The notes beneath the pieces are model-generated. The model was given only the letters and a program-made list of their open reading frames with translations. It was not told the DNA's origin and did not search any database. The position numbers were made by a program, and so were the translations under genes. Below, one piece after another: positions 10,525 to 55,134 of a DNA stretch of 64,000 nucleotides. The stretch is from NCBI GenBank assembly GCA_945957395.1, contig CAMFKE010000002.1, positions 1 to 64,000 of the forward strand, in the 5' to 3' direction. The DNA comes from an uncultured Opitutia bacterium (lineage in GTDB: Bacteria; Verrucomicrobiota; Verrucomicrobiia; Opitutales; UBA953). Every line of letters begins with the position of its first letter. The first letter of the stretch is position 1.

Positions 10525-13500
10525 ATGAGCCACGACAACCCCCACGGCTTCGACTTCGCCGGAAAACTCGCGGCGATGTTCACGAGCTCCAAGCTCACGC
10601 CGCTGATCATCGGCGTCTCCATCCTGCTGGGCGCGGCGGCCACGCTGCTGCTGCCGCGCGAGGAGGAGCCGCAGATCCGCGTGCCGATGATGGATGTCTA
10701 CGCCGCCATGCCCGGCGCCACCGCCGCCGAGGTGGAGACGCGCGTGGTGCGCCCCATGGAGCAGCTGCTCAGCGAGGTGCCCGGCGTCGAGTATGTGTAC
10801 GGCACCTCGCAGCCCGGCGGCGGCATGGTCATCGTGCGCTTCAAGGTCGGCGAGGATGTCGAAAAGAGCCTGGTGAAGCTCAACCAGAAGCTGCAGACGA
10901 ACTTCGACCGCATCCCCTCCGGCGTGTCGTTCCCGCTGGTGAAGCCGGCGTCCATCGACGATGTGCCCATCCTCGCGCTCACCCTGCATTCCGCGCACCA
11001 CGACGAGTCCTCGCTGCGCCGCGCCGCCGTGCAGCTTCATGACGAGATCAAGCGGCTGCCGGATGTGGCCGAGATCCGCATCAGCGGCGGCAAGCGCCGC
11101 GAAATCCGCATCGAGCCCGACCTCGCCGCGCTCGCCGCGCGCGGTCTCGCGTGGGACGACCTCGTGGCGCGACTCGGCGCCGAGAACCGCCGGGGCGACG
11201 CCACGCCCCTCGCCTCGCCCGCCGGCTCCGTCGCCGTGCAAGCCGGCCGCTTCTGGCGCGACGCGCGCGATGTGCGCTCGACGATTCTGAGCGTGCGCGA
11301 CGGCAAGCCGGTGCGACTCGGCGATGTCGCGACCGTGACCGACGGGCCCGAAGATGTTTCCGGATACGCCTATTTCGGCTCGCCCGGCCTGAGCGCCGAG
11401 GAGCCCGCCGTCACGCTGTCCGTGGCGAAGCGCCCGGGCGCCAACGCCATCACGGTGGTCAAGGAGGTGCGCGGCATGGTTGATAACCTGCGCGGACGCG
11501 TGCTACCGAAGGACATCGCCGTATCGGTGGCGCGCGATTACGGCCGGACGGCCGCGGAGAAGAGCGACGAGCTGCTGCTGCACATGGGCCTGGCCGTGCT
11601 GGGGGTGTCCGCCATCGTGTGGGCGTTCCTCGGACGGCGCGGCTCGCTCATCGTGGCCATCGCCATCCCGGTCACCCTGGGCCTGACGCTGATGGTGTTC
11701 CACCTGCTCGGCTACACGCTTAACCGCATCACGCTTTTCGCGCTCATCTTCTCCATCGGCATCCTGGTGGACGACGCCATCGTGGTCGTCGAAAATATCG
11801 TGCGCCACCGCGCGCTGCCGGAGAACGCGGACAAGTCGCTCGCCGCCATCACGGTGGAGGCGGTGCGCGAGGTGGGCAACCCGACCATCCTGGCCACCTG
11901 GGCGGTCATCGGCGCCATCCTGCCCATGGCGTTTGTCGGCGGCCTGATGGGCCCGTACATGCGCCCCATCCCGATCGGCTCCAGCGCCGCCATGGCGTTC
12001 TCGCTCATCGTCGCGTTCACCGTCACCCCGTGGGCGGCGTCGCGCCTTCTGAAAAACGACACGAGCCACCTGCACCACCACGGCGGACACGACGACCCGT
12101 TCACCCGGCTCTACCACCGCGTGATGGATCCGCTGCTCGCGAAACGCCGCTGGCGCTTCGCATTCCTCGGCGGCATCAGCGCGCTGCTGCTCGCGGCGCT
12201 GGCGCTGGTCCCGGCCGGCGTGGTGAAGGTGAAGATGCTGCCGTTCGACAACAAGTCGGAGCTCCAGCTCATCCTCAACATGCCCGAATCCTCCAACGCG
12301 GAGCAGACCGCGGCCGTCGCGCGCGAGCTCGCGCAGGTGCTGCGCGGCGACGCCGCCGTGTCGGACTACCAGTGGTATGTGGGCTCGCCCGCGCCGTTCA
12401 ATTTCAACGGGCTCGTGCGCCACTACTACCTGCGCAACCGCCCGCACCAGGCGGACATCCAGGTGAACCTGCTCCCGCGCGAGGCGCGCGAGGAGACGAG
12501 CCACCAGATCGCGCTGCGACTGCGCCCCGCGCTCGCCTCCATCGCCAAGAAACACGGTGCGCGCCTCACGGTCGCCGAGGTGCCCCCGGGCCCTCCCGTG
12601 CTTCAGACGCTTGTCGCCGAAATCTACGCGCCCGACGACGCCGGCCGCGCGGCGCTCGCCGCCGAGGTGATGCGCCTCTTTGAAAACACGCCCGGCGTGA
12701 CCGACATCGACAGCTACGACGAGGCGCCGCCGCCCACCACGCTGCTCGCGCCCGACGCACCCAAGGCAGCCGCCCATGGCGTGACGCCCGCCGGCGTCGC
12801 GCGCACGGTGGATCAGGCGGTCAACGGCGCGACGCTCTCGCTGCTGCACGACCCCGTCGCGGGCGAGGAGGTTCCGGTGCGCGTGCGCCTCGCGCGCGCC
12901 GACCGCGCGCGGCCGGAGTCGCTGCTCAACCTCGATGTGCGCGGCGAGCCCGGCGCGCCGGCGGTGAAGCTGCGGGAGATCGCCACGGTGGAGACGCGCC
13001 CCGGCGACGCGGCGCGTTACCGCAAGAACCAGTTGCCCGCGAAGTATGTCATCGCCGATGTGGCCGGCGCAGTGGAAGGTCCGGCCTACGCCATCGCGCC
13101 GCTCACCAAAGCGATTGAGCAGCTCGACGCGCGCAAGTTCGGCGGGCCCGACGCGCGCGTGGACCAGTACCACCTGAACCAGCCGGGCAGCGACCTGCGC
13201 CCGGCGGTGAAGTGGGACGGCGAGTGGCACATCACGCTGGAGGTGTTCCGCGACCTGGGCGCGGCGTTCGCGGTGGTGCTCGTCATCATCTACGCGCTGA
13301 TGGTCGGTTGGTTCCGCTCGTTCGCCACGCCGCTGGTGGTGATGGCCGCCATCCCGTTCTCGCTCATCGGCATCCTGCCCGCGCACGCCGGCATGGGAGC
13401 GTTCTTCACCGCCACCTCCATGATCGGGTTCATGGCCGGCGCCGGCATCGTGGTGCGCAACTCCATCATCCTCGTGGACTTCATCGAGCTGCGCCGCAGC

Positions 13501-13793: not shown

Positions 13794-15089
13794 TTACGCC
13801 TTGGCGAGCGCCTGCTCGAGGTCGGCGATGATGTCGGTGACATCCTCGATGCCGACGCACAGGCGGATGTAGTCGTCCGTGACGCCGGAAGCGGCGCGCT
13901 CCTCGGAGGTGAGCTGGGAGTGCGTGGTGCTGGCCGGGTGGATGGCGAGCGAGCGGGCGTCGCCGATGTTGGCCACATGGCTGTGCAGCTTGAGCGCGTC
14001 AATGAAGTTGCGGCCGCCCTCGTAGCCGGACTTGAGGCCGAAGCCGACCATGCCGCCGAAGCCGCCCTTCAGGTACTTCTTGGCGAGGTCGTGGTACTTG
14101 GAGGACTTCAGGCCCGGGTAGTTCGCCCACTTCACCTTCGGGTGCGACTCGAGGAACTCGGCCACCTTCTGCGCGTTCGCGCAGTGGCGCTCCATGCGCA
14201 GGTGCAGGGTTTCGAGGCCCTGGATGAGCATGAAGGAGTTGAAGGGAGAGATGGCCGTGCCCACATCGCGCAGGAACTGCAGGCGCTGCTTGAGAATGTA
14301 GGCGACATTGGCGTCACCGGCGGGCGGGAAGGCCTTGAAGGTGGGCCAGTAGGTGAGGCCGTGGTAGGAGGCGTCGGGCTGGGTCATGCAGGCGAAGCGA
14401 CCGGAGCCCCAGTCGAAGTTGCCGCCGTCGACGACGATGCCGCCGATGGAGGTGCCGTGGCCGCCCATGTACTTGGTGGCGCTGTGCACGACGATGTTGG
14501 CGCCCCACTCGAACGGGCGGTTCAGGAACGGGGTGAGCGTGGTGTTGTCCACCATCAGGGGCACGCCGGCCTCGCGGGCGATCTTGGCGACCTCCTCGAA
14601 GGCGAAGATGTTCAGGCGCGGGTTGCCCATGCCTTCGCCGTAGAAGAGCTTGGTGTTGGACTTGAGCGCCTTGCGGAAGTTTTCCGGATCGTCGCCGTCC
14701 ACGAAGCTCACCTCGATGCCGAGCTTGGGCAGAGTGTGGTGGAAGAGGTTGTAGGTGCCGCCATAGAGCTGGGAGACGGACACCACATGGTCGCCGGCGC
14801 CCGCGATGTTGAGGATGGCGGCGGTGATGGCGGCCTGGCCGGAGGCGTGCGCGAGCGCGCCGGAGCCGCCTTCGAGGGCGGCCACGCGCTGCTCGAACAC
14901 ATCCGTCGTGGGATTGCCGATACGCGTGTAGATGTTGCCCAGTTCCTTCAGCGAGAACAGGTTCGCGGCGTGCTCGGTGTCGCGGAACTGGTAGCTGGTC
15001 GTCTGATAGATGGGCACGGCGCGCGCGCCGGTGGTGGGATCGGGCTTCTGCCCGGCGTGAATGGCGAGGGTGGCGAACTTGTGGGACAT
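13794..15089 (-). CDS. metY: O-acetylhomoserine sulfhydrylase / aminocarboxypropyltransferase
   Basis: The 431-aa protein is a Cys/Met-metabolism PLP enzyme that joins O-acetylhomoserine with sulfide to form homocysteine. The N-terminus [33 protein letters not shown] and [22 protein letters not shown] are typical. Lys206 in [13 protein letters not shown] binds PLP. DVFE and the length around 430 favour MetY over MetB or MetC. I placed the start at 15089 since upstream codons give an unrelated Arg/Pro-rich leader. A SAM riboswitch, often found before such genes, was not seen in the 344-bp upstream region. Confidence 0.94.
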
Positions 15090-42743: not shown

Positions 42744-43541
42744 ATGATTACCGCACGCCTCCTGTTGAAGTCCTGCCTTGTCGCCGCCCTCACCCTCGCC
42801 GTGTCCGCCGAACTTTCCGCCCGGGGTGCGCACGGCGGCGGCCGCCCCTCCGGCGCCGGCCGGGATGGCGCTCGAAACTCCGGCGAGCGCGCCGGCGCCG
42901 AACGGCGGGAAAAGGCCGGCGAGGCTCGCGAAAAGGCCCGCCGAAATCGTGAGGACGCCCGCGAACGCGAGGCCTCCGGCAGCGTCGAATCCTCGACCGG
43001 GAAATCCGCCACTTGGAATAGCCGCACCGAGCGCGAACCCGGCAAGACCGACAGGACGACCACCTGGACCGGCTCCGACGGCAAGACCGGCACGCACACC
43101 TCGACCAACACCTACGACAAATCCACGGGAACCGGCACGCACACCGGCACCACCACCCTGCCCGACGGTCGCACCGTGTCCTCCCAAGGCACCTTCACCA
43201 AAACCGACACCGGCGCCACCTACTCGGGCACCCGCACCGGTCCCTCCGGCAACACGCAGACCGTCAACGGCACGATGACCAAAACCGACACCGGAGCGAC
43301 CGTCTCGCGCACCGTCACCGGCGAAAACGGCCGCACGACGACCGCCGAAAAAACCATCACCAAGACCGACACCGGCCGCACCTCAAACACGATCGTCACC
43401 GGCCCCGACGGCGCCAGCGCCACCGCCCAATCGACCGTCACGCGCGACGGCGCCACGCTCACCCGCACCACCGACATCACCCGCCCCGACGGCACCGGCG
43501 TCACGCGCACATCCACAGGTACGGTGACCTCGTCGAAGTGA
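42744..43541 (+). CDS. Exported Thr/Gly-rich repeat protein
   Basis: The 265-aa protein has a signal peptide (about 1-28), then a charged, helix-prone Arg/Glu/Gly-rich stretch (30-90), and then imperfect repeats of about 28-30 residues to the C-terminus. The repeat core is TKTDTGxT...TxTGPxGxT, seen at about 150-180, 180-208 and 208-238. Such Thr/Asp/Gly repeats suggest a stalk-like or beta-structured surface protein. I recognise no family. It is a single gene between two terminators. Confidence 0.8.
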   Translation: MITARLLLKSCLVAALTLAVSAELSARGAHGGGRPSGAGRDGARNSGERAGAERREKAGEAREKARRNREDAREREASGSVESSTGKSATWNSRTEREPGKTDRTTTWTGSDGKTGTHTSTNTYDKSTGTGTHTGTTTLPDGRTVSSQGTFTKTDTGATYSGTRTGPSGNTQTVNGTMTKTDTGATVSRTVTGENGRTTTAEKTITKTDTGRTSNTIVTGPDGASATAQSTVTRDGATLTRTTDITRPDGTGVTRTSTGTVTSSK

Positions 43542-43564
43542 CGCAGCCCGCGCGCCCGGCAGTC

Positions 43565-43605
43565 AGGCCCCGCCGCCGCACCCTCGCGGCGCCGGGGCCT
43601 TTTTT
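43565..43605 (+). terminator. Rho-independent terminator of the repeat-protein gene
   Basis: AGGCCCCG-type left arm (43565-43572) pairs with CGGGGCCT (about 43592-43599), followed by a T-run. Confidence 0.82.
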
Positions 43606-43653
43606 ATGCGAAGCCGAAAAAGGCCGACGCCGGTTCCTCTTCAATCTTCCCCT

Positions 43654-44079
43654 TTATTCGCCCACAAGCGCCGCGGCGGCGGCGTGCAGGCGCAGTTCCT
43701 CCGGTGTCTCGGGCGAGACGGTCACGCCGTGCGCGAGGGATGCGCCGGAGGCGTCCACATGCACGAATGTCATGGTGGACTCGATGGTCGGCTCGGTGTC
43801 GTCGTCGCGGCGAGCCTCGACGCGCGCGACGAGCCGGCTGCGCCCGGCGAGCACGATGCGAGCGCTCAGGCGAAGCAGGCGCCCCTTGGCCACGGGCCGG
43901 TGGAAGTCCATGCCGTGAACTTTCTTGCAGACGATGCGGGCGGGGTCGGTCATCGCGGCGGCGGCGATGAACCCGGCCTCGATCATCCACTCCGACGCGC
44001 GCCCGGCGAACAGCGTGCCGTGGTGGTTGAGGTCCTCGCCCTTCACCAACCGGAGCGTCTCAAAACTGCGTAGTGACAT
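43654..44079 (-). CDS. Acyl-CoA thioesterase (hot-dog fold)
   Basis: The 141-aa protein belongs to the YciA/BFIT-like acyl-CoA hydrolases: MSLRSFETLRLVKGEDLNHHGTLFAGRASEWMIEAGFIAAA, with NHHGTLFAG as the catalytic stretch, and VCKKVHGMDFHRPVAKG. It hydrolyses acyl-CoA to the free acid and CoA in the cytosol. The start at 44079 is preferred to one 12 codons upstream. It converges on the repeat-protein gene. Confidence 0.85.
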   Translation of the reverse strand: MSLRSFETLRLVKGEDLNHHGTLFAGRASEWMIEAGFIAAAAMTDPARIVCKKVHGMDFHRPVAKGRLLRLSARIVLAGRSRLVARVEARRDDDTEPTIESTMTFVHVDASGASLAHGVTVSPETPEELRLHAAAAALVGE

Positions 44080-44130
44080 ACGCGCGAGTGCGCCCGATAT
44101 CGCCCCCGGGCGCAAGCATGCGCAGCTTCG

Positions 44131-44164
44131 GGAAAACCACGGGGAGCACGGAGGTCACGGGAAG
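44131..44164. repeat. CCGTG-type short repeat
   Basis: Units of about 8-10 nt with CACGG (CCACGGGGAG, CACGGAGGT, CACGGGAAG) lie in line. The sequence is the inverse of the one at 25824-25850 with few changes. Confidence 0.5.
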
Positions 44165-44223
44165 ATAAACCGGCCCGACACCGAGCCGACAGGGCCCGCC
44201 GGGCGACCGGGCGTCCACGATTT

Positions 44224-44318
44224 CTCACGCCAAGACGCCAATGCGCCAAGAAGAACGAACAACCGCCGGGCGCGCATAATCCCACTGCCACTTTGGCGAC
44301 TTGGCGTCTTGGCGTGAG
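44224..44318. repeat. 8-nt-period inverted repeat, copy A
   Basis: The left arm (44224-44253) is CTC followed by ACGCCAAG, ACGCCAAT, GCGCCAAG. The right arm (44291-44318) is its near-perfect reverse complement with CTTGGCGT units. The arms can form a stem of about 28 bp. The right arm recurs exactly in copy C. Confidence 0.9.
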
Positions 44319-44420
44319 CCTATCGACGCCCCATTCGCGCCCTGAGCCGGGTTGTTGTGAAAATGCGCGGGTGGCCTTTGTCGGTTTGGCGACGGAACAG
44401 GCCCGTCCCAACTTTCGCGC

Positions 44421-44822
44421 ATGTCGCAAAAATCGTCGCAGGAAATTGACCGCATCGCCTCCGTCATCGTCGACACGGCCTACAACCTGCACCGTGAGCT
44501 CGGCCCCGGGTTGCTGGAATCCGTTTACGAAGCCGTGTTGGCCAAAGTGCTCACCGAACGGGGATTCAAAGTGGAACGCCAAAAGCCGGTCGCCATCCGT
44601 TATGCGGAACTGGTTTTCGACGAGGGATTCCGGGTCGATTTACTGGTCGAGGATGCCGTGGTCGTGGAGTTGAAGTCCGTCGAGGAACTGAAAGCCGTAC
44701 ACGGGAAGCAGACCCTGACCTACTTGAGGCTGCTCAACCTGCCCGTAGGACTGCTCATCAACTTCGGCGCCGCCCAGTTCAAAGATGGCATCAAGCGCGT
44801 GGCGAACGGGCACCGGGATTGA
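44421..44822 (+). CDS. GxxExxY protein
   Basis: The 133-aa protein belongs to the GxxExxY family, named after the motif seen here as GLLESVYEAVL (about residues 30-40). RVDLLVEDAVVVELKSVEELKAVHGKQTLTYLRLLNLPVGLLINFG has the D-x-n-E-x-K pattern (Asp/Glu-Leu-Lys) of a PD-(D/E)XK nuclease-like core, with ExK in VELKSV. The function of the family is not established. The gene is bracketed by 8-nt-period inverted repeats (44224-44318 and 44839-44938), a setting that suggests it travels or co-evolves with them. Confidence 0.92.
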   Translation: MSQKSSQEIDRIASVIVDTAYNLHRELGPGLLESVYEAVLAKVLTERGFKVERQKPVAIRYAELVFDEGFRVDLLVEDAVVVELKSVEELKAVHGKQTLTYLRLLNLPVGLLINFGAAQFKDGIKRVANGHRD

Positions 44823-44838
44823 AGACGGGGCTAACTTT

Positions 44839-44938
44839 GCACGCCCAGGCGCCAAATCCCCAAGAAGCGCGAATCCACGAGCGTGCGCACACAATCCCGG
44901 CCGCCTTGTCTTGGCGACTTGGCGGCTTGGCGTGAAAC
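44839..44938. repeat. 8-nt-period inverted repeat, copy B
   Basis: The left arm (44839-44873) is a degenerate GCCAA-type series. The right arm (44905-44938) has CTTGGCGA, CTTGGCGG, CTTGGCGT. It starts 17 bp after the GxxExxY stop codon. Confidence 0.85.
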
Positions 44939-44983
44939 GCTCCGCTTTGGGTTTATCCAACCAGCCCATAATCGTCGCGGCCA

Positions 44984-45011
44984 CTTTGGCGACTTGGCGT
45001 CTTGGCGTGAG
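44984..45011. repeat. 8-nt-period repeat, copy C (right arm only)
   Basis: This 28-bp sequence is identical to the right arm of copy A (44291-44318). It lies 41 bp before the DTW-domain gene. Confidence 0.9.
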
Positions 45012-45052
45012 TCGCCCTATATCGGTGGTTTTCTCCCCAACCCTCCCGCACC

Positions 45053-45817
45053 ATGAGCCGTGAGATGTGTTATCGCTGCAACTGGCCGGCCCGCCTGTGT
45101 TGGTGCGGGTCGATCACGCCCCTGCGTGTGCGCACCAAGTTCGTGTTTTTGATGCACCCGCATGAGCACAAACATGTGCGCAACGGCACCGGCCGGCTCA
45201 CGCACCTGAGCCTGCTCGACAGCGAACTGCACATCGGGTCGCGCTTCGACAAAGACCCGGCCGTGCAGGCGCTGCTCGCCGACCCGCACAACCACTGCGT
45301 GCTGCTCTACCCCAGCCCCACGGCGGTGAACCTGTCCACGGCGACCCCGGGCGACCCGCTCCCGGCGCTGGGCGAGCGGCGCCTCGTCGTGTTCCTGCTC
45401 GACGCCACCTGGAACCTCGCCCGCGTGATGCTGCGCGACAACCCCGGCCTGCGCGCCCTGCCGCACATCATGTTCTCCGGCGCGGCCCCGAGCCGGTTCG
45501 TCATCAAAAAGCAGCCGGAGCCGGGCTGCCTCTCCACGCTGGAAGCCACGCACGAGCTGCTCGTCGCCCTCGACCGATCGGGCCTCGATTCGTACGCGGG
45601 CGATTCGTCACCGTTGCTCGACCTGTTCCGGCGCATGCAGGAGTTCCAGGTGCGTTGCGCCACCGAGCTCAACAACCGCCGGCATGTCTACAAAAAGACC
45701 CCCGAGGAACGCGCCGCCGCCGCGCTGCTCCAAGGCGAGAAGCGCCGCAAGGTCTTCACGCCCTCCGTGCTGAAACAGCCCGAGGGCGGAACATCCGGAA
45801 ACACTCCGGCGGAGTAA
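45053..45817 (+). CDS. DTW-domain protein, probable tRNA-uridine aminocarboxypropyltransferase
   Basis: DTW-domain proteins of the TapT/TuaA (YfiP) type transfer the aminocarboxypropyl group from SAM to uridine of tRNA (acp3U). The 254-aa protein has CYRCNWPARLCWCG at the N-terminus (zinc-ribbon-like cysteines), HPHEHKHVRNGTGRLTHLSL, the signature DATWNLARVM (the DTW motif, with DATW) and SRFVIKKQPEPGCLSTLEA. The C-terminal tail (about 215-254) is Lys/Ala-rich and is the part found again, decayed, at 48225-48617. An inverted repeat starts 5 bp after the stop. Confidence 0.9.
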   Translation: MSREMCYRCNWPARLCWCGSITPLRVRTKFVFLMHPHEHKHVRNGTGRLTHLSLLDSELHIGSRFDKDPAVQALLADPHNHCVLLYPSPTAVNLSTATPGDPLPALGERRLVVFLLDATWNLARVMLRDNPGLRALPHIMFSGAAPSRFVIKKQPEPGCLSTLEATHELLVALDRSGLDSYAGDSSPLLDLFRRMQEFQVRCATELNNRRHVYKKTPEERAAAALLQGEKRRKVFTPSVLKQPEGGTSGNTPAE

Positions 45818-45821
45818 GGGC

Positions 45822-45894
45822 CCACGCCAAGCCGCCAATGCGCCAAGGATTCCGCCGGCGCCCTGTTTTCTTGGCGTCTTGGCGACTTGGCGTG
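45822..45894. repeat. 8-nt-period inverted repeat, copy D
   Basis: The left arm (45822-45849) has CACGCCAAG, CCGCCAAT, GCGCCAAG. The right arm (45866-45894) has CTTGGCGT, CTTGGCGA, CTTGGCGTG. It starts right after the DTW stop codon, and its left junction is duplicated with copy F at 48618. Confidence 0.9.
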
Positions 45895-45925
45895 CCCGAT
45901 CGGCGTTTCGCACCGTGGCCGCGCG

Positions 45926-45965
45926 CAAAAAAAGCCCTTGGGGCGAACCCCAAGGACTTTTGTTG
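45926..45965 (-). terminator. Rho-independent terminator of the RRM gene
   Basis: CCTTGGGG (45936-45943) pairs with CCCCAAGG (45948-45955) around a short loop. On the minus strand it is followed by a T-run (A-run 45927-45933 on the plus strand). Confidence 0.85.
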
Positions 45966-46020
45966 CGGCCCGTTCTTGCGTCAGGGCCGGCGTGGACTTC
46001 TTGGCGAAGCCCGACCGGTT

Positions 46021-46518
46021 TTAGCGGCCGTAGCCGCCGCCGAAGCCGCCGGAGCGACCTCCGCCTTGGTAACCGCCGCGCTCGCCGCCGCCGAAGCCGC
46101 CGGAGCGGCCGCCGCCCTGGTAGCCGCCGGAGCGACCGCCGCCGAAGCCGCCGCGATCACCGCCGCGGAAACCGCCGCGATCACCGCCGCCGAAGCCGCC
46201 GGAGCGACCGCCGCCGAAACCGCCTTCGCGGGGTCCGTCGAACGAACGACGGGGACGCTCGGCGCCCTCTTCGCGAGGACGCGCGATGTTCACCTTCATG
46301 GGGCGACCCATCAGGTCCTGGCCGTCGGTGCCGGCCACGGCAGCCGTGGCCTGCTCGGCCGTCGACATCGTGACGAACGCGAAACCGCGGGCGCGGCCGG
46401 TGAATTTATCCTTGAGAACCTCGACGTTCTCAACGGTGCCGAAACGGCTGAAAAGTTGGTTGAGGTCTTCCTCAGTGGCAGCCCAAGGCAGGTTGCCGAC
46501 GAACATTTTGTTATCCAT
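46021..46518 (-). CDS. RNA-binding protein (RRM domain, Gly/Arg-rich tail)
   Basis: The 165-aa protein has one RRM (about 1-80) with RNP2 (MFVGNLPW, residues 5-12) and RNP1 (RGFAFVTM, about 44-51), followed by a Gly-rich tail of GGFGGG, GGYQGGG and RSGG repeats (about 95-165). This layout matches bacterial glycine-rich RNA-binding proteins, often cold-induced, which bind single-stranded RNA. The gene has a long upstream region and a strong terminator. Confidence 0.94.
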   Translation of the reverse strand: MDNKMFVGNLPWAATEEDLNQLFSRFGTVENVEVLKDKFTGRARGFAFVTMSTAEQATAAVAGTDGQDLMGRPMKVNIARPREEGAERPRRSFDGPREGGFGGGRSGGFGGGDRGGFRGGDRGGFGGGRSGGYQGGGRSGGFGGGERGGYQGGGRSGGFGGGYGR

Positions 46519-47065
46519 GTACTACTAGCGTTTGTGTGTGCAAAATCCCTTGTGGGACGCGTAGGACCATCCGGTGTCCCCGTCGACATACAACCGCAAT
46601 CGCTCGGGCCTCGAATAATAACCGCCAGGCGAGCACCGGGGCCGAACCGCGGTCGACTCACCCGCGCAAAACCGGCCCGAAAAGGACGCAATCGCCTCTC
46701 TCGCCGCCCTCAAAACACCCTTCGGGGGGGCTCGCCGGCGCCGCCGGGCGTGCCGCCTTCGTCGCGAAAATGCCTCACGCGAAAACCGGCAAAGGCCGCC
46801 AAAAACCACAGGGGTGGCCATCGCCCTGCCCTCCTTTCGCGGCTTTTCTCGGCTTTGGCGTGAACAGTCTGCTCCGACTGTTCGCTTCGGGGCGCGCGGG
46901 AATTCCGGGTTCCGGTGCGCCGCCGCGCTCAACAACCGCCGCGACCGACCGGCCCCAGGGCGGATATCCGCCGGCGATGCCGGGGCTCACGCCAAGCCGC
47001 CAAGTCCGCCAAGGGGGCGACAAGATCCGGGCTTGATTCCACCGGGGATCGATCATCCCGACGGC
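46519..47065. other. Intergenic region upstream of the RRM gene
   Basis: This 547-bp stretch holds no convincing gene. It contains the promoter and leader of the RRM gene on the minus strand. A loose inverted repeat with CGAAAACCGGCAAAGGC (46767-46783) and a CTTTCGCGGC/CTCGGCTTTGG series (46834-46860) lies in the middle, and copy E of the 8-nt-period repeat at 46986-47014. Confidence 0.6.
46986..47014. repeat. 8-nt-period repeat, copy E (left arm only)
   Basis: CTC followed by ACGCCAAG, CCGCCAAG, TCCGCCAAG. No right arm is seen nearby. Confidence 0.8.
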
Positions 47066-47479
47066 ATGGAGAACAAAAACTTTCCCGAGCGAAAAGCGTC
47101 CGAGGCCGAGGTGCTGACGGTGTATTACGAACTGAAGCGCTGGCGCCCCCGGGGATTCCTCGTCGTCTACAGCGACCGTTCCGATGGCGACCATGACTTG
47201 GTGGCGATAGTCGATACCTGCGATGGCGACGAAGACCGGTTGCGCATCGTGCGCGCCGTGATTCGCGCCGTGCGCTCCGATTGCATCATCGTCGCGGAGC
47301 GCGATGCCGAGGCCGTGCAAATCCTGGAGGATGGCGCCCGGCGTGCGCTGAGCCTGTCGGAGTGGCGGTTCCTGTTCAGGACTTACCGGAAAGAACAAGC
47401 CCGGTCACTTGCCCGGAACACCGTGCCGCGATGCTCCAAACGGTATCGGGAGTTGTTCGCCCGCGCTTTCGGGGATTGA
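47066..47479 (+). CDS. Hypothetical protein in accessory region
   Basis: This predicted 137-aa protein is charged and soluble (EVLTVYYELKRWRPRGFLVVYSDRSDGDHDLVAIVDTCDGDEDRLRIVRAVIRAV). I recognise no family. The alternating hydrophobic pattern in residues 30-75 suggests an alpha/beta domain. The C-terminus is basic. Third-position GC is lower than in the housekeeping genes, fitting an accessory gene. It starts 51 bp after copy E of the 8-nt-period repeat and ends 31 bp before a frameshifted nuclease-like gene. Confidence 0.5.
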   Translation: MENKNFPERKASEAEVLTVYYELKRWRPRGFLVVYSDRSDGDHDLVAIVDTCDGDEDRLRIVRAVIRAVRSDCIIVAERDAEAVQILEDGARRALSLSEWRFLFRTYRKEQARSLARNTVPRCSKRYRELFARAFGD

Positions 47480-47510
47480 TCCGGAAAAACCGCCGGCGAG
47501 GCTGGCGCCG

Positions 47511-48049
47511 ATGAGCTCCGCCGGTGACCATGAGAAATCCGCCAAGAACCGTGTGACCGAAAAGGCCGGGCTGGCGGTGTTGCTCGCCGACGCCAAGGGG
47601 CGTTTCCAAGCCCCGGATACGGCGACGAAGAAGGAGCTGCTGAAGCATCTCGGACTTAAGGACGAAACCGCGAACTACGGTGCCCAGAGTTTCGATGCGG
47701 TTTACTCGGACAAGCCGGTGCCGGCGCTCACCCCGGAGAATGTCGGCCGGTACGCCGACCGCCTGCACATCGTGGAGATGAAGACCACGAAGAAGCCGAT
47801 TCCCGACTCGTCGCTGGCGGGGTTCTTTTTCGGCGCCACCGAGCGCGAATACAAACTGGCCGAAAACTCGGCGACCGGTTCCGCTTCGCCTTCGTGGTGC
47901 TCAACGACGACAACGCCCTCGGGCGTCCGTTCGCCGTGCTGCTCACGCACGAGGAACTCGAAGCGCGCACGCAAACCAAGCGGGTGCAGTTCCAGGTGAA
48001 CCGCCGCAAAGCCGGAGCCAAAGCCTCGCCGCAGGATTTTGTGGTGTAA
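47511..48049 (+). pseudogene. Frameshifted DUF3883-like (nuclease-like) gene
   Basis: The first frame runs from ATG 47511 and encodes residues up to KLAEN near 47867. From there the protein continues sensibly in another frame as GDRFRFAFVVLNDDNALGRP and ends at TAA 48047-48049. One missing base just before 47868 explains the shift. The restored protein would be about 180 aa, with LHIVEMKTTKK (an ExK motif) and GDRFRFAFV, as in the DUF3883-type domain found in restriction-like proteins. The second half stays open, so the break is recent or an assembly error. Confidence 0.65.
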
Positions 48050-48064
48050 CGGCGCATTGCCATA

Positions 48065-48212
48065 GGGGCGGAATCTTGCTGCGCCCGCGACGAGGGCCGA
48101 TTTGCGAAGGCTGTCGCTCTCGCCCGGGCGATTCCCGCCGTACGCCGAGGATGGGCGGATTTGAGGCGAACAGGTTTTCCCCTTGCTCGCGGGCGGAACA
48201 AGATTCCGCCCC
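48065..48212. repeat. Inverted repeat flanking a 96-bp core (possible MITE-like element)
   Basis: GGGGCGGAATCTTG (48065-48078) is the perfect reverse complement of 48199-48212. The similarity extends, with few mismatches, to about 26 bp per arm (to 48090 and from 48187). No transposase is present, so it may be a small non-autonomous element or a structured remnant. Confidence 0.55.
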
Positions 48213-48224
48213 GACAACGAGACC

Positions 48225-48617
48225 GTCGCCGCTGCTCGACCTGTTCCAGCCCAGGCAAGAGTTCCAGGCCGCCAAACGACCCGGCCGGGATCGCTCCGGT
48301 CGGGGCCAGCCTTGGCTGCGGCCTCAATGACGGTCAGGCCTGGAGGTCGTTTTTACTCGGCTTTGGCCTGTCCAATTCAAGGTCCTCCCGGCGGGCGATG
48401 CGCTCCCGGCAAATCGGGCCCGGTCCGATCAAAAATCCTTCGCGCGCACCGCCCAACCGCCGAAAACCGGCCCCCGCTCGGCAAGCCCAAGAAGCCGCCG
48501 GAGGAACGCGCCGCCGCCCGCCTCCAAGGCTGGAAACGCCGGAAAATCTTCCCCCCCGCCAGCAGTGCCCGACCGGCCCGAGGCGGGAAAAACTGGAAAC
48601 ACGCCGTCGGAGTAAAG
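48225..48617 (+). pseudogene. Decayed partial copy of the DTW gene 3' end
   Basis: CCGCTGCTCGACCTGTTCC (48231-48249) and the following CAAGAGTTCCAGGC match the DTW gene at 45611-45653. A second block, 48487-48617 (with GAGGAACGCGCCGCCGCC and ...GTCGGAGTAA), matches its last 120 bp including the stop, at 45700-45817. Between the blocks the copy carries about 150 bp of extra sequence. Encoded residues such as PEERAAA..LQG.KRRK are still readable. The 8-nt repeat after the stop is duplicated too. Confidence 0.75.
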
Positions 48618-48643
48618 GCTCACGCCAAGCCGTCAAAGCGAGC
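48618..48643. repeat. 8-nt-period repeat, copy F (degenerate left arm)
   Basis: GGCTCACGCCAAGCCGTCAA and onward. It follows the decayed DTW copy in the same relative place as copy D follows the intact gene. Confidence 0.75.
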
Positions 48644-48929
48644 CATCTCTCTCGCCGCACCAGCGGCGGCAACAACCTCTTCGTATCCACAGAAACAATA
48701 CTCCGTTAGTTTTTCGCAAAGTCTCGCGCGCACCAGGCTGCACTTGATGCAGTCCGCCACTGGCTTCACCAGAAGCGCTCCAGCCTTAGCTTGCCGCGTC
48801 GCTTGCGCACTCGGGCGAACCATTCGCTGAACCAAATTTTCAAAAATCGACCATTGTCCTCCAATGAGGACTTGCCCACGGCAGTTTTTCCTCGATTAGG
48901 ACACAAAACCAACCTTTGCAGTCACGAGA

Positions 48930-49970
48930 ATGACAAGAATCTGTGCAGTAGACTTTTTTTGCGGAGCAGGAGGCCTAACCCGAGGACTTCTTGACGCTGG
49001 CATTGAAGTATTGGCTGGATATGACATTGATGAAGAATGCAGATACCCATATGAATACAACAACAACACCAAGTTCATAAAAAAAGACATTCATCAAATA
49101 ACAAAAGAGGAAGTTGAAAATCACTTCCCAAAGAATTGCATTAAAGTTTTAGCTGGCTGCGCGCCCTGTCAACCATTCTCTAAATACACGCAGGGGATTG
49201 ACACAAAAAGCAATCATAAATGGGGCCTCATGGGTGAATTCGCACGCCTAATCAAACAAATAAACCCTGATGTAGTCAGCATGGAAAATGTGCCTGAATC
49301 GACCAGGCATGAAATTTTTAAATTCTTCCTCGAAACACTCAATGAATTAAACTACAAAATTGACTACAAAATTGCATACTGCCCAGATTACGGCATCCCC
49401 CAAAACAGAAGGCGATTAATTTTAATCGCATCAAAGAAATCAAAAATAGAAATATTGCCCCCAACGCACAAACCTTGCGACTACCCAACGGTAAGGGATG
49501 CGATTGGACATTTGCCAAAAATAAAAGCAGGAGAATCTCACCCAACTGATCCGCTTCACAAATCCAGTCGCCTAAGTGATATAAACTTAAAAAGGATCAA
49601 AGCAAGCAAACCAGGAAACTCTTGGCGAAACTGGAGCGATGATTTAATTTTAAAGTGCCACAAAAGTAAAACAGGAAAAACATACCCAAGTGTCTACGGA
49701 AGAATGTCATGGGATAAACCAGCCCCAACAATAACAACACAGTTCTTTGGATTTGGCAATGGTCGCTTTGGTCACCCAGAACAAAATAGGGCAATCTCCC
49801 TGCGTGAGGGTGCAATATTTCAATCATTCCCCAACAATTACCAGTTCACAAAACCAGACACCACGCACACAATTAGAAACATCGGTAGAATGATTGGCAA
49901 CGCAGTTCCCGTTAAGCTAGGAAAAATAATAGGCGAAAGCATAGTAAAAACAGAAAAGGCCGAAGTTTAA
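48930..49970 (+). CDS. DNA (cytosine-5) methyltransferase
   Basis: The 346-aa protein methylates C5 of cytosine in DNA. All key motifs are present: motif I DFFCGAGGLTRG (8-19), the catalytic PCQ of motif IV (Pro79-Cys80-Gln81 in CAPCQPFSKY), motif VI ENV (119-121), motif VIII QNRRR (158-162), motifs IX and X with GNAVPVKLGKIIGESI near the C-terminus. The gene is AT-rich, unlike its GC-rich surroundings, so it was probably acquired. It converges on the HEPN gene, and the two stop codons overlap within a palindrome. It probably protects the host against the facing HEPN/DUF262 genes. Confidence 0.96.
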   Translation: MTRICAVDFFCGAGGLTRGLLDAGIEVLAGYDIDEECRYPYEYNNNTKFIKKDIHQITKEEVENHFPKNCIKVLAGCAPCQPFSKYTQGIDTKSNHKWGLMGEFARLIKQINPDVVSMENVPESTRHEIFKFFLETLNELNYKIDYKIAYCPDYGIPQNRRRLILIASKKSKIEILPPTHKPCDYPTVRDAIGHLPKIKAGESHPTDPLHKSSRLSDINLKRIKASKPGNSWRNWSDDLILKCHKSKTGKTYPSVYGRMSWDKPAPTITTQFFGFGNGRFGHPEQNRAISLREGAIFQSFPNNYQFTKPDTTHTIRNIGRMIGNAVPVKLGKIIGESIVKTEKAEV

Positions 49971-49990
49971 CCTTCGGCCTTTTCTGTTTT
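49947..49990. terminator. 19-bp perfect palindrome: shared bidirectional terminator
   Basis: The arm AAAACAGAAAAGGCCGAAG (49947-49965) is the exact reverse complement of 49972-49990, with a 6-nt loop holding both stop codons. It carries A/T-runs on both sides and so can end transcription from either side. Because of the palindrome, both proteins end in KTEKAE plus one residue. Confidence 0.9.
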
Positions 49991-50713
49991 ATTGAGCCAC
50001 GCTTTCTCTAAAATCGTCTTTTCAACGCCAGCAACAAATTGCTCAAGAACCTTCTTTGAGTCATCAAAGTAAATTTTCAACTCAGCGCCAGTTAAATTAG
50101 CACCCTTGTCTGAAAACGAAAGATTTCCATGGGCCAAATCATGCCGAGCCTTCATAATCACATGCAACACACCATCCTCCTTATCTCTAGGCACAACTAT
50201 ATTGCAATCAATCAATCCATACTTTTTAGAAAAAATATCCAACTTACCTTCATCAACAGCACCCATTGGTGGAACTATTTTAAAACCAGCAGGAAGCTCC
50301 TTTTCGAAGTTGATACAAAAATCCAGCAAAGTCCTGATGTTTTTAATCTTAAAAGACTCCAAACCATTTCCCTCAACCTGAACACTAACCGTATCAGCAA
50401 TCCTACGTCGCCATAAATTACTTAAATTAACATAAGAAACATTACTACTAACAACAGCATCAGAAAGCCCCTCAAGTGATTTAGCGACAACACTTTCGAC
50501 AATATTATACAACTGCAAGTAAACAGTAGCCTTTAAAACCTTCTCATTTCTCTTTGAAAGAACGTAACGATTGGCTAGATCTGCAGTTTCCATCGTAGAG
50601 CCGCAAGGAACAACACCATGTCCATCGCCAAAACGCTCAAGAAAAAGCACAAGCCCCAAATATTCCTCATACTCATCAAAGCGTCTATTCATTTCAGTTC
50701 TAATCTTTTCCAT
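49967..50713 (-). CDS. HEPN-domain protein (MAE_28990-like), putative RNase effector
   Basis: The 248-aa protein has the HEPN signature R-x4-H as R190-HDLA-H195 in IMKARHDLAHGNLSF, where the Arg and His form the RNase site of active HEPN toxins. The N-terminal part, RRFDEYEEYLGLVLFLERF followed by KATVYLQLYNIVESVVAKSLEGL, resembles the MAE_28990/MAE_18760 group of HEPN proteins, which occur in defence loci. It lies 7 bp downstream of the DUF262 gene, so the two form an operon. The gene is AT-rich. The RNase activity is inferred from the motif. Confidence 0.8.
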   Translation of the reverse strand: MEKIRTEMNRRFDEYEEYLGLVLFLERFGDGHGVVPCGSTMETADLANRYVLSKRNEKVLKATVYLQLYNIVESVVAKSLEGLSDAVVSSNVSYVNLSNLWRRRIADTVSVQVEGNGLESFKIKNIRTLLDFCINFEKELPAGFKIVPPMGAVDEGKLDIFSKKYGLIDCNIVVPRDKEDGVLHVIMKARHDLAHGNLSFSDKGANLTGAELKIYFDDSKKVLEQFVAGVEKTILEKAWLNKTEKAEG

Positions 50714-50720
50714 ATGGCTA

Positions 50721-51875
50721 CTATGAAACTCGCTTTAAGTCCGTAGCATCCTCGCCCAAAATCATTCTTTTTACATAATCAATTCGCTCTCTCAATCGCC
50801 TTCTCGTGTTTGCAGCACTTGACGTTGTGTGGTATTCAAAGTCTTTACCGTCAATCCATGAGTCAATTAAAACGGCAGGAGAATTTAACCCAGGGGATTG
50901 CCTCAAGGCATTATAGACGCCAACAGCAATAGCTTCGAATCTCACTTTCGGAGTAGACTTTGCCCCTGCCGTCTTCCTGAAGCCATTTTTGAAATTTCTA
51001 TCAACAAAACTCATCACAGAATTAAATCGCTCACGATAAGAAACTGCCATATTGGCGTCGCTCAGAAACACATCATTCATCTTCTCCGTATAATCATACA
51101 AGAAGTCCTTAGGTTTATCTTCATACTTAAGACTTCCCTGTTCCAATCCATCACCATATGCAAAGAATCTACCAATAACCTCCTCCCGTTGACGCAAATC
51201 AATCATTCTTTGCGTCATCGGGCAAAGCTTATTAAACAAATCATCTTTTGCAAGCTCTTCAACAAAACCAGAAAAACGCCCAGGTAATGCACCACGACGA
51301 ACCTCAACAGGAAGCGCAGTCACACTACCTGTATTAATTCTATAAAAAATATCTTGCTTATCAGATTCAGGAACATTCTTACCGAGCACGATAGTTCGAA
51401 TGCTTCGATTTAAAAACCGTCTCTTATGCTCGTCTGGTAAATCTGAGAACTTAAACCCATCCAATTCATCAAGACGCTCCAACGCTGCAACAACCAATTG
51501 ATCCTTTAGAAATTCATTGCACGAGCTAAGTCTTTGCCAACCATCAATAACCTCCATTCGGCCATCTTTATTTTCAGACAGAAAAACATACGGAATAGGC
51601 AAGCCAAGCAAAAGTGTTTCAATAAACCTGCACTTGCGCTCAAAATCCCAAATAAAATTCCTTTGATATGGCGGGCAAAAAAGATCCCCCTTTGTAATCT
51701 TATAAACCAAAAACTCCACAGTGTACTCTTTGGTTGTATAATCAACCTCATCCTGAAGCAAATTCAACTGAACCCTTGCCTTCTCTTTTTGACTATTCGA
51801 AATCACCGAACCATCAATTGATTTATCCCAAATTAAACCAAATTCGCCCTGCAAGATACTTTCGTCTGTAGTCAT
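50721..51875 (-). CDS. DUF262 domain protein (ParB/Srx-like NTPase/nuclease fold)
   Basis: The 384-aa protein has a DUF262 domain (about 50-200), recognised by CPPYQRNFIWDFERKCRFIETLLLGLPIPYVFL and the catalytic-type DGWQR (111-115). GmrS-type proteins with this domain bind nucleotides and act in type IV restriction, with a DUF1524 HNH partner; no such HNH domain is visible here. The partner is instead the HEPN gene 7 bp downstream. The gene is AT-rich and its start lies at 51875, with a 248-bp region toward acnA that must hold the promoter. Confidence 0.88.
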   Translation of the reverse strand: MTTDESILQGEFGLIWDKSIDGSVISNSQKEKARVQLNLLQDEVDYTTKEYTVEFLVYKITKGDLFCPPYQRNFIWDFERKCRFIETLLLGLPIPYVFLSENKDGRMEVIDGWQRLSSCNEFLKDQLVVAALERLDELDGFKFSDLPDEHKRRFLNRSIRTIVLGKNVPESDKQDIFYRINTGSVTALPVEVRRGALPGRFSGFVEELAKDDLFNKLCPMTQRMIDLRQREEVIGRFFAYGDGLEQGSLKYEDKPKDFLYDYTEKMNDVFLSDANMAVSYRERFNSVMSFVDRNFKNGFRKTAGAKSTPKVRFEAIAVGVYNALRQSPGLNSPAVLIDSWIDGKDFEYHTTSSAANTRRRLRERIDYVKRMILGEDATDLKRVS

Positions 51876-52046
51876 AGGATTGCTGTCTTTAGAAGTTGGG
51901 TATAGAGAAGGATTCCATTAGCAAAAAGTCGAATACAACAGATAGAGAGAAAAGGGGGAGGGCTTCGACTAAATTGGCAACGGTTTGAGGAAGGAAAACC
52001 TCAATCACCTGCACATGCAAGCCTAGGAAAATGCCAGAAAGAAAAA

Positions 52047-52082
52047 TCGCCGCCCCAGAACGGGACGGCGGATTTTGATTTT
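52047..52082 (-). terminator. Probable Rho-independent terminator of acnA
   Basis: On the minus strand CCGCCGTCCCGTTCTGGGGCGG forms a GC-rich hairpin and is followed by CGATTTTTC. It lies about 45-75 bp after the acnA stop. Confidence 0.7.
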
Positions 52083-52123
52083 TCGAGGGAAGGGCGGCCA
52101 GGGACGGCCGCGCTCCGGCAGGC

Positions 52124-54823
<2,700 letters not shown>

Positions 54824-55134
54824 GGGAGGAATGGGGGTGGGAAGACGAAGGAGGGAGACGAAGGGAGGTCGGCGCCGTTGACAAGCGGCGGCATGCAAAA
54901 GCCGGCGACCTTAGGCGGGGTGGGAGAAAAGACGGGCCGGGGCGGGCGCGTCAAGGGCCGAGGCGCAGGGGGGCGAGGCGCTCGGGTGGAGGGGATACGC
55001 GGCTGCGATCGATTCTCTTGTATCAGTTTATAAGCACTTCCGGGCGGCCGCGGCCCGCCGGGCGGGTCCTCGCCGGGCAAAAGCACGATTGCCGGATGAG
55101 GTTGCCGGCGCATAAGGCCGGACACTTTCTTTAC
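54824..55134. other. Divergent intergenic region, acnA / TRIC gene
   Basis: This 311-bp region holds both promoters. A less GC-rich stretch TTGTATCAGTTTATAAGC (55018-55035) is the best candidate for part of a promoter toward the TRIC gene. The acnA leader is C/T-rich on its coding strand. No gene or clear repeat is seen. Confidence 0.55.

Follow-up and report, generated by a model that had tools for sequence, protein, structure and literature searches.

Two eroded copies of the 3' end of a DTW-domain gene in an uncultured Opitutia bacterium

The DTW gene and its displaced tails

Why should the end of an intact gene turn up twice more, in broken form, within the next 3 kb of DNA? The question is raised by a stretch of 64,000 nucleotides (the window) from an uncultured Opitutia bacterium, in which a DTW-domain gene (45053-45817, plus strand) is followed by two colinear copies of its 3' end on the same strand, T2 (about 46863-47012) and T3 (48224-48640). 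We regard both as probable relics without function, left when the 3' end of the gene, with the start of the repeat behind it, was long ago duplicated locally.

The source of the copies is intact. Its ORF of 254 aa matches PF03942 with an E value of 2.6e-50 and 171.3 bits, the curated cut-off being 33.7; its 3' end (45606-45817, plus strand) is referred to here as tail T1. DTW proteins are enzymes that form acp3U in tRNA (PMC6895100, PMC7026641). None of the 36 other genomes of its own family had a DTW match at E <= 0.001. Such matches were present in 66 of the 372 genomes of the order, its own genome included, and the remaining 65 all came from one other family, f14, in which genomes often have at least two matches. 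No closer DTW gene came from a wider sample, 384 genomes of the class. In a midpoint-rooted tree the window gene formed a long branch between two f14 clades, inside neither of them, and its codon use was native-like (better than that of 89 of 113 sampled ORFs). A recent import from f14 was rejected on these two grounds; an old import and loss in relatives fit the data alike and cannot be told apart. Synteny was of no use here, since no neighbourhood is shared: the thioesterase adjoining the DTW gene had weak matches in 5 of 41 family genomes, its own among the five, and the neighbours of the DTW gene in one f14 genome, G324, recurred neither in 39 other stretches nor in the window at E 1e-15.

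T3 is made up of two blocks in the order and on the strand of the gene, as the preliminary description had claimed. Block A (48224-48268, plus strand) copies 45606-45650 with 39 of 45 positions identical (87%), and block B (48474-48640, plus strand) copies 45676-45842 with 131 of 172 aligned columns identical (76%; pairwise E 5e-30). Scored without the trailing repeat, blocks A and B reached 33 and 62.5; the best of 1000 dinucleotide shuffles reached 20.5 and 22.5, respectively, and no other 125-nt piece of the window, of 447 scored, exceeded 22, so the alignment exceeds what random high-GC sequence provides. The copy starts at nt 554 of the 765-nt gene. Its stop codon, TAA, lies at 48613-48615 and homology continues for about 25 bp past it into the first arm of the CGCCAAG hairpin that follows the gene, which bears out the earlier statement that both had been duplicated. 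The sequence splitting the copy had been put at about 150 bp; it measured about 205 bp (48269-48473), in place of 25 bp of the gene, with a right edge uncertain by some 30 bp, where a weak extension was matched by 206 of 2000 shuffles. When the genome was queried with 48050-48480, the matches were that piece, the DTW counterpart of block A and a hairpin arm on contig C8, with no other significant copy of the splitting sequence.

A second, more eroded copy had been overlooked. T2 starts at about nt 563 of the DTW gene, runs on the plus strand into the first repeat arm and has lost about 100 bp of the tail internally. Its two alignments pair 45615-45681 with 46870-46941 (75%) and 45742-45848 with 46917-47014 (68%), and it scored 33.5 against 20.5 for the best of 1000 shuffles. 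In a global alignment the stop codon itself was not preserved, and T2 alone is weak at the protein level. When the whole gene was used as the query, only block B, block A and T2 were found in the window at E < 1e-6, the next match having an E value of 1e-3. No other piece of codons 1-184 was present in the window, nor in the genome at E <= 0.001. A query with the tail and repeat (45590-45900) found eight places in the genome: six at C2:44.2-48.7 kb, among them the gene itself and a repeat arm upstream of it, and elsewhere only two 25-nt repeat-arm matches, both on C8.

Neither tail shows a clear codon-position bias, and T2, like T3, lacks roughly the first 184 codons. T3 is truncated and disrupted in frame, as these codons are absent, the insert splits it, and indels put its two ends in different reading frames. 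Differences between gene and T3 at codon positions 1, 2 and 3 numbered 9/59, 9/59 and 15/61 (a single pair), a weak third-position excess which appears close to neutral and would fit drift. Nevertheless T3 can be assigned to its lineage. The tail of the window DTW protein differs in length and text from 42 other aligned DTW proteins, and T3 shares its SPLLDLF and KKxPEERAAA..LQG features, which are absent from all 42. T3 is therefore a copy of the DTW gene of this lineage rather than of a distant paralogue. It also retains Q, I and P, the residues of most relatives with an alignable tail, where R, V and T stand in the present gene; at two further residues it is the present gene, not T3, that has the consensus. 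The gene has thus changed too, and decay of a copy of the present gene does not by itself account for T3.

The sequences around the tails are rich in hairpins. Directly after the DTW stop codon lies the CGCCAAG-type repeat (45823-45894, arms 45823-45847 and 45870-45894), with a DNA fold z score of -4.2 and none of 200 shuffles as stable. It is followed by a gene with an RRM Pfam domain on the strand opposite to DTW (46021-46518) and then by a hairpin of another type (CGCGAAA..., 46774-46863), the right end of which touches the left edge of T2. This second hairpin is weak (z -1.75; 13 of 200 shuffles matched its stability), and arms of similar text occur on C8 (L006). Between T2 and T3 are a 137-aa ORF (47066-47479), which has no family and was matched, weakly, by 2 of the other 371 genomes in the order, a frameshifted ORF (about 47511-48050) with its N-terminal part in ORF 47409-47999 and its C-terminal part in the P0001 frame, and a 148-bp hairpin element (48065-48212) whose right end is 11 bp before T3. 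The frameshifted ORF had been likened to DUF3883, a resemblance that could not be recovered: 47409-47996 and P0001, with the frames taken separately, matched no Pfam family at E <= 0.01. The 148-bp element has 26-nt arms that are 92% complementary and a fold z score of -5.6. Thus both tails end on the right in a CGCCAAG arm and begin on the left at hairpins of two different types (46863 and 48212). Behind neither tail could a second CGCCAAG arm be found, and without one no such hairpin would form. T3 is directly followed by a low-GC block (48930-51875).

Partial DTW copies in other genomes

We surveyed 40 other stretches carrying 41 DTW genes from 33 f14 genomes, which do not represent every f14 match. 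Strong partial DTW copies near the gene were found at 1 of these 40 loci, that of G324 (L044, G324:C117:72000-91900). DTW genes also had weaker matches, at E 1e-6 to 1e-3, elsewhere in their own stretches. At the G324 locus three pieces of DTW (10949-11159, 13949-13999 and 15254-15368 of L044) lie downstream of an intact DTW gene and on its strand, at distances of 0.9, 3.9 and 5.2 kb, and the last of them reaches the stop codon. The G324 locus thus resembles the window in having broken, same-strand pieces downstream of an intact gene. It differs in its end points (nt 343-566 and 630-744), in lacking any CGCCAAG repeat and in a third-position bias, the summed differences at codon positions 1, 2 and 3 being 22/107, 11/110 and 30/108; this bias suggests that the pieces probably once coded. 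A search of the whole G324 genome found the two longer pieces only at the DTW locus, besides one paralogue. In another genome, G241, DTW occurs as a pair of full-length paralogues; a repeat near DTW in that genome (L067) was rejected as a DTW piece because it proved to be a palindromic repeat.

As a control, 444 ORFs with a length of 150 aa or more from 41 stretches (612,767 bases) were searched for copies within 10 kb at E <= 1e-12, 70% identity and 80 bp, a filter for which T2 is too short. Twelve rows passed. Two came from G324, three from the T3 event, two from one tandem gene pair, three from the palindromic repeat of L067, one from an inverted 81-bp match in L052 and one from L069, where the 3' end of a small ORF is copied. 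Partial local copies are therefore uncommon but not special to DTW. Moreover, the window was chosen for having relics, so that 1 of 40 other DTW stretches is no evidence of a hotspot. Partial copies of DTW have arisen in at least two families. The small ORF of L069 (G324:C52:143400-152200) is a comparable case in its own right, its 3' end (313-462 and 2383-2532) being copied 2 kb away at 83% identity.

Origin of the tails

Most likely the copies are ordinary genome debris which does nothing now. The extra tails may have been made by template switching, or by ectopic recombination or unequal exchange, in a repeat-rich accessory spot; insertions and deletions would then have disrupted them, with drift following. 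That a past duplication has since decayed had already been proposed, and both the homology and the lineage-specific tail text uphold this. Recombination between repeat copies, which had also been suggested, is a possible route. The intervals between the tails share no significant similarity, which excludes a simple tandem duplication of one unit, and the left edges lie at different hairpins. Like gene remnants beside a parent gene elsewhere, T2 and T3 are partial, frameshifted neighbour copies on the same strand that may be free of selection; they stand apart in coming as two in succession, both taken from the 3' end and both carrying the beginning of the hairpin repeat behind it. Several observations count against debris, among them the consensus residues that T3 has and the present gene lacks. 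The near-identical start of T2 and T3 within the gene (about nt 563 and nt 554 of 765) is unexpected under random duplication and would be predicted by an attachment site inside the gene. In addition, the left edges are at two hairpin types, one of them weak, and the genome had no match to the Y1 (REP-type) transposase PF01797. Transposases of the Y1 type move palindromic repeats. If they are debris, T2 and T3 are ordinary and matter little, except as a warning for annotation: ORFs called over 48161-48830 are not genes.

With a smaller but appreciable chance, the genome once had a full second DTW gene as a tandem paralogue, and T3, perhaps T2 as well, is what remained after deletion of its 5' part. 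The frequency of multiple DTW matches per genome in f14 speaks for such a gene, as do the second- and third-position differences of the G324 relics, which look as if the pieces had diverged while coding, and the family-consensus residues that T3 has kept and the present gene has lost. It would, however, be expected to leave traces of codons 1-184, of which the window and the genome hold none outside the intact gene at the threshold given above, and more codon-position bias than the little seen in T3; T2 and T3 would also each have to have lost the same 5' part.

We consider it rather unlikely that the 3' end of DTW is an attachment site, at which an integrating element brought in the present tail and old tails were displaced twice. 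The model for such an arrangement is the E. coli prophage e14, which displaced the 3' end of icd (PMC6379469); for icd, att identity blocks as long as about 250 bp, with a replacement sequence, are described in PMC10111431 and PMC6379469. Here too the end of a housekeeping gene is copied on the same strand, from an internal start, beyond other sequence. The tails run from one internal position to the gene end and enclose different genes, as the mechanism predicts, and the three T3 residues nearer to the family consensus than those of the present tail would be those of a displaced original; at the two other residues, though, the consensus is in the present gene. The differences are that here no integrase or prophage genes were found, that identity is only 76-87% and that there are two displaced tails. 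ORFs scanned in the intervals and on either side of the tails showed no integrase or recombinase domain. The 10 interval ORFs had no Pfam domain and among the main ORFs only the RRM gene has one, so that the intervals (the RRM gene, the 137-aa ORF and the frameshifted ORF) contain nothing phage-like by Pfam. The low-GC island is outside T3 and not between the tails, the G324 relics have other end points, and 39 of the 40 other loci are without a strong displaced tail. Since neither an integrase nor an element was found, we rank this model below debris. More doubtful still is its extended form, in which the 3' end of DTW would be a recurrent landing site entered at least twice by small elements carrying replacement tails, leaving three successive versions of the tail and, later, the repeat cluster and captured defence genes. 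If DTW did contain an attachment site, it would be a further example of a protein gene used at its 3' end for integration.

It is very improbable that the tails persist because they serve some purpose, such as signalling the end of transcription or providing recombination sites through which the DTW tail could be exchanged. The region of the stop codon and a hairpin arm were copied with each tail, but the second CGCCAAG arm is missing from both, 43500-52500 contained no Rfam match, and the longest identical runs are only 18 nt (gene and T3) and 15 nt (gene and T2). Chance similarity can practically be dismissed despite the GC-rich region and the weakness of T2 in protein terms, as 0 of 1000 shuffles attained any of the three scores, other window pieces scored at most 22 against 33-62.5, and the copies are colinear, on the same strand and include the stop codon and trailing repeat.

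Repeat clusters and low-GC blocks

The CGCCAAG arm pattern had 15 matches in the 2.79-Mb genome, where the backward control had none, and no match in 548,767 bases of f14 stretches. All 15 fall into two clusters, seven at C2:44.2-45.9 kb and eight at C8:146.0-153.0 kb. The C8 cluster (8256-18300 of L095, G000:C8:135000-154766) is a nest of many degenerate self-copies, 60-93% alike, so that here, too, DNA has been copied locally. It is adjoined by the one further copy of the 148-bp element, at about C8:145.8-145.95 kb (C8:145928-145948, seen in L043). As short hairpins between genes these repeats resemble REP and similar palindromic intergenic repeats (PMC3733652); they differ in length (70-150 bp), in the confinement of the CGCCAAG type to two clusters and in the lack of a Y1 transposase. 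A brief look at the literature on palindromic repeats in Verrucomicrobia and on truncated copies at islands found nothing on this locus.

A GxxExxY (PDDEXK_3) gene at 44421-44822 (TIGR04256) has CGCCAAG hairpins on both sides (44224-45011). Mobilisation of hairpins by the GxxExxY nuclease was rejected as a general link, as the flanks of other GxxExxY genes are not richer in palindromes than those of DTW genes: a palindrome score of at least 14 was reached by 6 of 56 GxxExxY flanks and 5 of 57 DTW flanks, flanks under 250 bases and short loci being left out.

The low-GC block after T3 encodes a C5 cytosine methyltransferase, a HEPN (MAE_28990-like) protein and a GmrSD_N/NsnA-like protein, and precedes a gene (52124-54898) which we take to encode aconitase. 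By codon use all three genes are foreign (0 of 113 for each), and the methyltransferase and GmrSD_N genes match defence models. No tRNA gene was found at 40-56 kb. The C8 cluster adjoins a low-GC gene of 800 aa with weak NTPase matches, located after gatB; this block had no PADLOC match. One-kb windows below 50% GC numbered 6 of 127 in the window and 4 of 38 in the C8 stretch, which was picked for its repeats; 11 other stretches, chosen by round coordinates, had none among 428. Each of the two CGCCAAG clusters thus stands next to a low-GC gene block, although no rule can be drawn from two cases. Within the block of the window a near-perfect 22-nt palindrome (49947-49990) covers the ends of the methyltransferase and HEPN genes, which converge here, and is probably their shared terminator.
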